This document shows, piece by piece, positions 15,189-32,503 of a DNA stretch of 34,199 nucleotides. The position numbers were made by a program, and so were the translations under genes. Source of the stretch: Bacillota bacterium (lineage in GTDB: Bacteria > Bacillota > JADQBR01). A model generated the notes under the pieces. It had not been told where the DNA came from and did no database searches. It saw nothing but the letters and a program-made list of their open reading frames with translations. Numbering within the stretch: position 1 is the first letter of the stretch; every line of letters starts with the position of its first letter. Location: positions 1-34,199 of the forward strand of contig JADQBR010000081.1 in NCBI GenBank assembly GCA_016278515.1. The letters are read 5' to 3'.

Positions 15189-15497
15189 TTACAGTTTGAT
15201 CTCAATATCAACGCCAGCCGGCAAGTCTAAACGCATTAGAGCATCTACAGTTTTTGGAGTAGGTTCAACGATATCTATTAACCGCTTATGGGTTCTCATT
15301 TCGAACTGTTCCCGAGAATCTTTATTGACATGCGGTGAACGTAAAATTGTAAATACATTTCTTTCAGTCGGCAATGGGATGGGTCCGGATACGTTGGCGC
15401 CAGTCCTTTTTGCAGTCTCTACTATCTTTTGAGAAGATTGGTCTAAAATCTTATGATCAAACGCCTTTAGGCGGATGCGGATTTTCTGTTTAGCCAT
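15189..15497 (-). CDS. rpsJ: 30S ribosomal protein S10 (NusE)
   Basis: S10 is a 30S head protein and, as NusE, a transcription antitermination factor that pairs with NusB and contacts NusG (30046-30570). The 102-residue product has the complete family sequence, from [20 protein letters not shown] to [27 protein letters not shown] precedes the ATG. It opens the S10 segment after a 149-base spacer from tuf copy 1, which contains three hairpins but no clear promoter. Confidence 0.99.
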
Positions 15498-15540
15498 TAA
15501 TTTCTTCCTCCTTTTACGCCCGATTGTCGGACTGTTCTCA

Positions 15541-15636
15541 GTGAAAATTACCTGGGCGATCCCAGCAACCTTTCACATCATTGCAAAAACTGTTTTGCAT
15601 GACAAGGGGCTAGCGGCATTCTAAATACCGCCAGCC
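15541..15636 (-). promoter_or_regulatory. Structured spacer between tuf (copy 1) and rpsJ
   Basis: Three hairpins can be drawn in the transcript. (1) 15636-15625 with 15619-15608: 12 pairs including two G-U, 5-base loop, just after the tuf stop. (2) 15599-15593 with 15588-15582: 7 pairs closing a 4-base loop. (3) 15576-15571 with 15546-15541 enclosing 15565-15561 with 15556-15552, with a 5-by-5 internal loop between the two helices. None is followed by a U-run, so they are not canonical terminators. The position is that of the S10 leader, through which L4 acts in E. coli. It may alternatively be an RNA-processing site that separates tuf from the r-protein mRNA. Confidence 0.5.
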
Positions 15637-15646
15637 TCATTATTAA

Positions 15647-16852
15647 TTACCCCTCGACAACTTCACTAACAACGCCGGCACCTACAGTGCGTCCGCCTTC
15701 GCGAATAGCGAAACGTAATCCTTCTTCTATAGCAATGGGTGTTATTAACTCAATATCCATCTTAATGTTGTCGCCAGGCATTACCATCTCTGTTCCTTCT
15801 GGTAAGGTTACTACACCTGTTACGTCTGTTGTCCTGAAGTAAAACTGGGGACGATATCCTTGGAAAAATGGGGTGTGACGCCCACCTTCTTCTTTAGATA
15901 ATACGTATACTTCTGCTTTAAATTTTGTCAGTGGCTTTATGGAACCGGGCTTTGCCAGTACTTGACCACGCTCAATCTCTTTACGATCTACGCCTCTTAG
16001 TAAGCAGCCTACGTTATCTCCTGCTTCGGCTCGATCTAATAGTTTACGGAACATTTCTACTCCGGTTACTACTGTCTTTTTGGTTTTCTCATCTAATCCA
16101 ACTATCTCTACTTCATCTTGTATCTTTACTTCTCCACGGTCTACTCTGCCGGTTGCTACTGTTCCACGACCGGTAATACTGAAAACGTCTTCTACCGGCA
16201 TTAGGAATGGCTTATCTTTGTCTCGCACGGGTGTAGGAATGTAGCTGTCTACTGCGGCCATTAGCTCATGAATCTTACCGCACCATTCGCAGTCCTTTTC
16301 GCCGCAACCGCACTCTAAGGCTTTTAATGCGGAACCACTGACAATCGGTACGTCGTCTCCGGGAAATTCGTATTCGGTTAGTAGTTCTCTAACTTCCATT
16401 TCTACTAGTTCCATTAATTCTTCGTCATCTACCATGTCTGCTTTGTTTAGGAATACTACCATGTATGGCACGCCTACCTGACGAGATAGCAGGATATGCT
16501 CTCTTGTTTGAGGCATCGGTCCGTCTGCTGCACTTACTACTAAGATTGATCCGTCCATCTGGGCTGCTCCGGTAATCATGTTCTTTACATAGTCTGCGTG
16601 TCCGGGGCAGTCTACGTGTGCATAGTGACGGTTCTCTGTCTCGTATTCTACGTGTGCTGTAGAAATTGTGATGCCACGCTCTTTCTCCTCCGGTGCATTG
16701 TCAATCTGGTCGTATGCTGTCGCAACTGCTCCACCTGACTTGGATAATGTAAAGGTGATGGCTGCTGTCAATGTGGTCTTACCATGGTCTACGTGTCCTA
16801 TTGTCCCTACGTTAACGTGCGGCTTTGTCCTTTCAAACTTTTGCTTAGCCAT
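15647..16852 (-). CDS. tuf: Elongation factor Tu, copy 1
   Basis: EF-Tu delivers aminoacyl-tRNA to the ribosome as a GTP complex. The 401-residue protein has the P-loop GHVDHGKT (19-26), DCPGH (81-85), NKAD (136-139) and SAL (174-176), then domains 2 and 3. Unusually, residues 181-191 form [11 protein letters not shown], a C-x-C-x4-C-x2-C cluster inserted after the SAL motif; I recall similar inserts in Desulfotomaculum-like Clostridia. By base-by-base reading the gene is identical to copy 2 over the whole coding sequence. It follows fusA after 50 bases, with AAAGGAGG upstream, so it is probably cotranscribed with rpsL-rpsG-fusA. Confidence 0.99.
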
Positions 16853-28577: not shown

Positions 28578-28607
28578 GCAACACACCTCCTTTTCAAAGT
28601 GAAATTT

Positions 28608-28729
28608 TACATAAAAATAAGGCCTCATAGACATACGAGGCCATGATATTCCTTGAAATATCACTTACTTACACCTCGGCAGGCGGAAAAAGTTTTCCAT
28701 TAAACTCTTAGAGTGCCTACTGTCTACGG
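28608..28729 (-). ncRNA. L10 leader with intrinsic attenuator
   Basis: The leader carries the paired segments CCGTAGACAGTAGGC (28729-28715) and GCCTGCCGAGG (28684-28674), which resemble the kink-turn binding site for the L10(L12)4 complex in Firmicute leaders. An attenuator stem follows (28642-28637 with 28626-28621, GGCCTC/GAGGCC), with the U-rich UUAUUUUUAU after it. The bases CGAGG (28678-28674) of the L10 site could instead pair with CCUCG (28640-28636) of the attenuator arm. Thus L10 binding would favour termination and its absence would favour readthrough. This fits the known mechanism; the alternative pairing here is inferred. Confidence 0.85.
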
Positions 28730-28740
28730 TTAACTATTTA

Positions 28741-28769
28741 TTTATAAGAAATGCTATCACAGTTTAACT
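28741..28769 (-). promoter_or_regulatory. Possible rplJ promoter
   Basis: On the minus strand TATAAA (28746-28741) is a good -10 element. A -35 is poor: AGTTAA at 28769-28764 gives 17 bases of spacing. It lies just upstream of the L10 leader, where a separate rplJL promoter would be expected. Readthrough from rplKA is equally possible, since no terminator separates rplA from this site. Confidence 0.35.
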
Positions 28770-31261: not shown

Positions 31262-31289
31262 AAAAAGCAGGGATCTGACTCCCTGCTTT
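31262..31289 (-). terminator. Intrinsic terminator of tuf copy 2
   Basis: A perfect 10-bp stem (31289-31280 with 31273-31264) closes a 6-base loop and runs into UUUUU in the transcript. It begins 8 bases after the tuf stop codon, so copy 2 is a monocistronic or M48-tuf transcript with a defined end, unlike copy 1, which has no such terminator. Confidence 0.93.
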
Positions 31290-31297
31290 AAACCTAA

Positions 31298-32503
31298 TTA
31301 CCCCTCGACAACTTCACTAACAACGCCGGCACCTACAGTGCGTCCGCCTTCGCGAATAGCGAAACGTAATCCTTCTTCTATAGCAATGGGTGTTATTAAC
31401 TCAATATCCATCTTAATGTTGTCGCCAGGCATTACCATCTCTGTTCCTTCTGGTAAGGTTACTACACCTGTTACGTCTGTTGTCCTGAAGTAAAACTGGG
31501 GACGATATCCTTGGAAAAATGGGGTGTGACGCCCACCTTCTTCTTTAGATAATACGTATACTTCTGCTTTAAATTTTGTCAGTGGCTTTATGGAACCGGG
31601 CTTTGCCAGTACTTGACCACGCTCAATCTCTTTACGATCTACGCCTCTTAGTAAGCAGCCTACGTTATCTCCTGCTTCGGCTCGATCTAATAGTTTACGG
31701 AACATTTCTACTCCGGTTACTACTGTCTTTTTGGTTTTCTCATCTAATCCAACTATCTCTACTTCATCTTGTATCTTTACTTCTCCACGGTCTACTCTGC
31801 CGGTTGCTACTGTTCCACGACCGGTAATACTGAAAACGTCTTCTACCGGCATTAGGAATGGCTTATCTTTGTCTCGCACGGGTGTAGGAATGTAGCTGTC
31901 TACTGCGGCCATTAGCTCATGAATCTTACCGCACCATTCGCAGTCCTTTTCGCCGCAACCGCACTCTAAGGCTTTTAATGCGGAACCACTGACAATCGGT
32001 ACGTCGTCTCCGGGAAATTCGTATTCGGTTAGTAGTTCTCTAACTTCCATTTCTACTAGTTCCATTAATTCTTCGTCATCTACCATGTCTGCTTTGTTTA
32101 GGAATACTACCATGTATGGCACGCCTACCTGACGAGATAGCAGGATATGCTCTCTTGTTTGAGGCATCGGTCCGTCTGCTGCACTTACTACTAAGATTGA
32201 TCCGTCCATCTGGGCTGCTCCGGTAATCATGTTCTTTACATAGTCTGCGTGTCCGGGGCAGTCTACGTGTGCATAGTGACGGTTCTCTGTCTCGTATTCT
32301 ACGTGTGCTGTAGAAATTGTGATGCCACGCTCTTTCTCCTCCGGTGCATTGTCAATCTGGTCGTATGCTGTCGCAACTGCTCCACCTGACTTGGATAATG
32401 TAAAGGTGATGGCTGCTGTCAATGTGGTCTTACCATGGTCTACGTGTCCTATTGTCCCTACGTTAACGTGCGGCTTTGTCCTTTCAAACTTTTGCTTAGC
32501 CAT
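31298..32503 (-). CDS. tuf: Elongation factor Tu, copy 2
   Basis: This second EF-Tu gene (401 residues) is identical in protein and, by my base-by-base reading, in DNA to the copy at 15647-16852. That includes the [11 protein letters not shown] insert at 181-191. The identity extends only a few bases past the stop and stops right at the start codon; the flanks are unrelated. It has its own strong promoter (32643-32671), the ribosome-binding site AGGAGGG and a terminator. It probably supplies extra EF-Tu independently of the str operon. A gene pair so exactly alike is best explained by gene conversion. Confidence 0.99.

Follow-up and report, generated by a model that had tools for sequence, protein, structure and literature searches.

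The element in the spacer between tuf and rpsJ is a sub-threshold member of a leader that is already known, the S10 ribosomal protein leader (r-leader) of Firmicutes, and what is new is the idea of a kink-turn within it and an upstream extension at the level of the family. Judged from its sequence, the element at 15584..15506 on the minus strand of the window (the whole stretch of 34,199 nucleotides that was analysed) is likely to be this organism's copy of the Firmicutes S10 r-leader, with translation probably controlled by a ribosomal protein. The leader was taken as already described because a Firmicutes S10 r-leader has been published and an Rfam family (RF03136, S10-Clostridia ribosomal protein leader) exists. 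In the part of their paper that was available, Eckert and Weinberg 2020 (PMC7247131) credited the S10 r-leader of Firmicutes to Yao et al. 2007 and reported numerous Clostridia examples of it, without further discussion there. The original prediction had placed a regulatory RNA in the S10 leader position with hairpin 3 at its heart, and hairpin 3 is indeed the core of the described motif; its remark that S10-operon regulation is poorly defined outside Proteobacteria is not supported in that form, given the published leader and the Rfam family. The S10 cluster is among the largest ribosomal operons.

Layout of the spacer and match to RF03136

The str-S10-spc cluster lies on the minus strand of the window, where 149 nt (15646..15498) separate the tuf stop from the start of rpsJ. 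The minimum free energy of the spacer was -56.2 kcal/mol, against -35.5 +/- 3.8 for dinucleotide shuffles, none of which folded as well in 200 trials (z -5.5). The features are shown in Table 1. The spacer had been described as containing three hairpins; all three are present, but this is an undercount because P4 exists as well, giving four in total. Hairpin 1, given earlier as 12 bp, was found with 13 bp by folding, and the symmetric internal loop of hairpin 3 was borne out by the fold as a 4x4 loop. The absence of a canonical terminator also stood, with no proper U-run after any of hairpins 1-3. The interval 15541-15636, given with the original prediction, leaves the 3' part of the conserved element outside, and the conserved unpaired blocks on either side of hairpin 3 had been overlooked. 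Inside the spacer, a terminator scan flagged a single site, the inner stem 15565..15552 followed by the tail GTAATTTTCA; the scanned region as a whole held 3 terminator-like sites, where 1.5 would be expected.

Table 1 Features of the tuf–rpsJ spacer and its flanking genes in the window
Feature	Position	Strand	Description or basis
tuf copy 1	15647..16852	minus	Upstream of rpsJ; no terminator before rpsJ
Hairpin 1	15608..15636	minus	13 bp, 3-nt loop; fold z -6.1; no U-run
Invariant tail CCUUGUCAUGCAAAA after hairpin 1	15593..15607	minus	Identical in 3 of 3 family genomes
Hairpin 2	15577..15603	minus	Tetraloop stem with bulge; fold z -2.5
Core S10 r-leader, GCAAUGA block to Shine-Dalgarno	15506..15584	minus	RF03136 match and R1 match
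Conserved 5' block GCAAUGAUG (family consensus GCGAUGANG)	15576..15584	minus	Column conservation
Putative kink-turn, bulged strand	C15583, loop AAU 15582-15580, G15579 A15578, U15577	minus	Predicted
Hairpin 3 (P3)	15541..15576	minus	7 bp, 4x4 internal loop GUUG/GUAA, 5 bp, tetraloop; fold z -3.9
Conserved 3' block CUGAGA	15536..15541	minus	Column conservation and signature
Putative kink-turn, second strand	U15540, G15539 A15538, G15537	minus	Predicted
Hairpin 4 (P4), GUCCGACAAUCGGGC	15518..15532	minus	Beside Shine-Dalgarno; fold z -3.0
Shine-Dalgarno AGGAGGA of rpsJ	15506..15512	minus	Sequence
rpsJ (S10)	15189..15497	minus	ORF and S10 homology; first gene of the putatively regulated cluster

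The RF03136 model matched the spacer at 15589..15513 on the minus strand with 34.3 bits (E 8.7e-6), over its full length (model positions 1-81 of 81, not truncated). This score is 0.8 bits under the curators' cut-off of 35.1, which is a listing threshold and not a structural feature, and the Rfam search at the gathering threshold gave no match within the spacer. It was the single RF03136 match in the organism's own 4.27 Mb genome and lay directly upstream of rpsJ. Two relatives of the same family scored 33.6 and 27.1 bits, and since all three genomes are below the cut-off, the family lies just below the listing line. Among 41 genomes (own included), 23 had a match at E<=1 and 10 reached the cut-off, while in the 14 control genomes there were matches in Bacillus subtilis, Lactococcus lactis, and Haloferax volcanii, two of them exceeding the cut-off. 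The leader of the window resembles RF03136 in its position before rpsJ, the conserved blocks, the P3 and P4 helices, and the full-length match, and apart from the score it differs in a short P3 loop and in having, further upstream, a hairpin 1 and tail that are specific to the family. No kink-turn is drawn in the printed structure line of RF03136, which leaves the blocks around P3 unpaired.

Two other leaders were considered for comparison. The rpsJ motif RLC-47-1, reported from three genera of Peptostreptococcaceae in the accessible part of PMC11109978, is also a leader candidate before rpsJ in Clostridia. A second r-protein leader is present in the window itself, the L10 leader RF00557 at 28605-28747 on the minus strand (72.7 bits against a cut-off of 44). 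According to the available part of a review, its B. subtilis model includes a kink-turn motif; it differs from the S10 leader in serving another gene and in acting by attenuation in B. subtilis.

Covariation of the leader among S10 loci

Aligning 23 leaders, which remained of 24 RF03136 matches after L026 was dropped as spurious, yielded a model (R1); 22 of these 23, all except L020, could be placed directly before rpsJ. R1 was searched on 100 of 110 S10 loci found by S10 protein similarity, L127-L136 being left out. A match upstream of rpsJ was obtained in 84 of the 100 loci, the weakest with E 2.9e-4 (the E-values of R1 and of model R2, below, are rough owing to short calibration), and the motif was absent from 16; a further match in L077 was spurious. 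Most Bacilli loci with an R1 match lie outside the seed. The window, itself part of the seed, matched at 15599..15501 on the minus strand with a score that is circular because several loci share genomes with the seed. Some loci represented one genome from two collections, and identical rows were counted once.

Standard pairs filled 96.9% of the 1337 pair cells, against 83.0% when shuffled and 45-51% when slid. Both sides had changed in 13 of 17 pairs, and 270 double-change cells were counted against 61.8 +/- 18.5 in shuffled data; these pair counts took in the spurious L077:930 row. P3 helices 1 and 2 covary, with 99.0% and 91.6% of cells paired, and in P4 (helix 3) 98.7% of cells were paired, with both sides changed in 3 of 5 pairs. 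Because the alignment had been fitted to the structure, a test independent of the covariance model was also run, with the arms picked by sequence anchors: of 48 distinct arm pairs, 32 were fully complementary, against a mean of 11.3 when shuffled (maximum 18), three leaders without anchors being omitted and some wrong anchors lowering the observed value. A lack of covariation in relatives, which had been named as counting against the element, is thus ruled out for hairpin 3, and covariation was seen in P4 too; hairpin 2 showed no compensatory change in the three genomes compared.

Variants were seen at several S10 loci. In Bacilli (L070, L078, L079, L086, and others) the P3 loop carried an extra conserved module, GACACACCCGGCCGCTTTGCCATGGC or near it, and a similar stretch (ACGCCCGG / ACACCCGG) stood before rpsJ in L072 and L089 despite the missing core motif. 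The leader core was absent from L036, L037, L039, L045, L055, L058, and L059 (Moorella and similar), where one simple hairpin (GGGATCAGGC..GCCTGATCCC or near it) occurred shortly before the Shine-Dalgarno instead.

Putative kink-turn around P3 and candidate ligands

Column conservation, calculated on 82 rows with the spurious L077:930 row still in, showed that the blocks GCRAUGA and GAG flanking P3 are nearly invariant. The standard kink-turn, as described in the accessible parts of PMC4914095 and PMC4316175, has a 3-nt bulge, G.A and A.G pairs, a C-G pair beside the bulge, and a variable 3b.3n position; the letters of the leader fit all of these features, and its near-invariant bases coincide precisely with the defining positions. 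The signature C-NNN-GA / GA-G was present in 78 of 81 distinct leaders (L077:930 was dropped for the signature, distance and outer-pair counts), the window reading C-AAU-GA-U / U-GA-G. Position 1b.1n was G.A in 78/81, 2b.2n was A.G in 79/81, and -1 was C-G in 78/81, while 3b.3n varied (A.G 24, U.G 16, G.U 11, U.U 9, and others). The exceptions to the signature were L061 and L064, which lacked it on both sides, and L074, which kept CGAUGA with the other side poorly aligned; the alignment is weak at the conserved blocks for all three. In L061 (Peptococcaceae MAG) and L064 (Desulfosporosinus) the P3 internal loop was kept and the flanking GAUGA and GAG blocks were gone. The bulge was GAU in 68 of 81 leaders, which is more conserved than a kink-turn requires and may reflect contact with a ligand.

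The leader departs from standard kink-turns in its outer helix, where a single Watson-Crick pair gives way to G.A, G-C or G.U. In this putative outer (C) helix, position -2 was G.A in 52 leaders, G-C in 13, and G.U in 12, and position -3 was standard in 41/81. C17 could pair equally well with the invariant G227, and the outer-helix positions showed no covariation, which invariant pairs cannot show. That the blocks around P3 form a kink-turn core is, on these letters, quite possible though short of probable, and a kink-turn together with a ligand other than L4 was rated lower than the kink-turn alone. In the fuller and more tentative version, the leader would be a kink-turn (C-GAU-GA-N / N-GA-G) with a stub outer helix folding only with protein, the regulator, instead of L4, would be an S10-spc r-protein able to bind kink-turns, for instance uL24, and the hairpin and tail of the family would compete for the kink-turn strand; we consider this combination rather doubtful. 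The kink-turn letters, the covarying hairpin and the near-fixed spacing would leave only a few proteins to consider as ligands and suggest point mutations for testing.

Identity of the kink-turn with Kt-7 of 23S rRNA was dropped, because 3b.3n is U.G in 92% of bacterial Kt-7 according to the available part of PMC4914095, and the Kt-7 loop of L142 (AAGC-UUU-GA-U) differs from that of the leader. A three-way junction joining the 5' block to the Shine-Dalgarno side, suggested by the fold of 15498-15590, is not supported, as pairs past C17-G227 occurred in just 12-43 of the 81 leaders. Pairing of the leader 5' block with upstream sequence, seen in 28/81, is likewise no general feature. Among the titles listed by literature searches, none dealt with a kink-turn in the S10 or rpsJ leader, earlier publication still being possible, and the term kink-turn is absent from the text of PMC7247131.

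As for the ligand, recognition of hairpin 3 by uL4, as in E. coli, is possible but on balance improbable. L4 regulates the S10 operon of E. coli, and the prediction rule of Eckert and Weinberg (PMC7247131, in the part available) is to take previously established ligands; the case is one of precedent. Against it, no convincing rRNA-like match of the leader was obtained. When four leader blocks were scanned without gaps against the 23S and 16S rRNA of genome G001, the matches were no better than first-order shuffles, except in one of eight scans (block 4, the P4 3' side, with 16S; equalled by 1 of 60 shuffles). A search for the P3 internal loop in 23S gave 12/14 matches, but these were equalled by 38 to 50 of 60 shuffles. 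An apparent likeness of the leader to the 23S 5' domain and to a hairpin near G001 23S 873-900 carries no weight. The E. coli L4-regulated leader has the same genomic place and presumably the same purpose; the window leader, unlike the E. coli L4-type, is without an intrinsic leader-internal terminator. No ligand experiment on a Firmicutes S10 leader was found in the literature as far as it was accessible.

As a further candidate, uL24 is named only as a possibility, because it binds Kt-7 in the ribosome and its gene lies further along the same co-directional cluster. The rRNA matches of G001 (L137, L139) spanned 3506 nt for 23S against a model of 2925 and 1716 nt for 16S against 1533, so both seem to contain insertions; the assembly of the window itself gave no LSU or SSU rRNA match.

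Mode of control and the upstream extension

P4 ended 15-24 nt ahead of the rpsJ start codon in 80 of the 81 distinct leaders; in the remaining one, L116, the distance was 106 nt. This near-fixed distance and the missing terminator favour control at translation initiation as the inferred step. Under such control, r-protein of the S10 cluster in excess of its rRNA sites would bind P3 and its flanks, and the bound protein would fix P3 and P4 beside the ribosome-binding site; translation initiation of rpsJ would be lowered, and that of the rest of the operon by coupling. Pairing of the Shine-Dalgarno at a probability of at least 0.5 was predicted in only 39 of 79 leaders, and the off-state is therefore not visible in the sequence.

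The transcript probably enters the leader by read-through from tuf. The two tuf copies (15647-16852 and 31298-32503) are identical in all 1206 bases, and read-through as the probable source of the S10 mRNA was deduced because a terminator-like hairpin (31289..31264) stands after copy 2 but not after copy 1. Across 59 leaders with tuf located upstream, a terminator-like hairpin between tuf and the core was present in 5 of 28 spacers shorter than 150 nt and in 21 of 31 longer ones, so the missing terminator is usual for short tuf–rpsJ spacers and not special here. The search for a promoter in the spacer gave weak sigma-70-like sites only, and the -10 of the better site was, by eye, not kept in relatives.

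Protein binding could instead lead to premature termination or anti-termination, as in E. coli L4-S10 or in the B. subtilis L10 leader with its attenuation. We regard this transcriptional mode as unlikely in the window, since the terminator scan found no intrinsic U-run terminator in the spacer and the short stretch between P4 and the start codon leaves little room for one.

Upstream of the core, a second model (R2), covering hairpin 1 and the tail, was built from three family genomes and searched on 41 genomes as well as on the window plus 49 S10 loci. Among the 41 genomes it matched the three family genomes at the same place with E 1e-11 or better, these being the model's own sources, and two weak matches were found elsewhere (E 0.04 and 0.08). 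In the 50 sources of the second search, good scores were obtained in three family members only. In the three genomes all 33 cells of hairpin 1 are paired, and three of its pairs are compensatory; the covariation support is moderate because there are three sequences and 17 of 500 shuffles were as good. Hairpin 1 and the tail are a family-level addition, with a possible role in processing or stabilising the 3' end of tuf.

For the tail, both the leader 5' block and the Shine-Dalgarno are potential pairing partners. The 3' arm of hairpin 2 overlaps the conserved 5' block, so hairpin 2 and the leader reading of that block partly exclude each other. Hairpins 1 and 2 might on this basis be a lineage-specific switch in which the invariant tail either masks the protein site by pairing with the GCGAUGAGG block or pairs with the Shine-Dalgarno instead. 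CCUUGUC is fully pairable with GAUGAGG in G001 and G002, and for the window two registers of pairing between tail and Shine-Dalgarno are predicted, at probabilities of about 0.4 and 0.5. Against a switch, its pairs show no compensatory change, 2 of the 7 outer pairs are broken in the window and 1 of the 6 inner ones in G002, and the pairing of tail and Shine-Dalgarno reached at most 0.18 in G001 and 0.02 in G002, so we give it little credence. It is highly improbable that the hairpins are mere processing or stability structures of the tuf 3' end outside any r-protein control: hairpin 1 does stand close after the tuf stop and covaries in the family, and terminators occupy the same place in some other spacers, but P3, P4, and the flanks adjoin rpsJ even at loci where tuf is distant, with as much as 1181 nt between its stop and the core.
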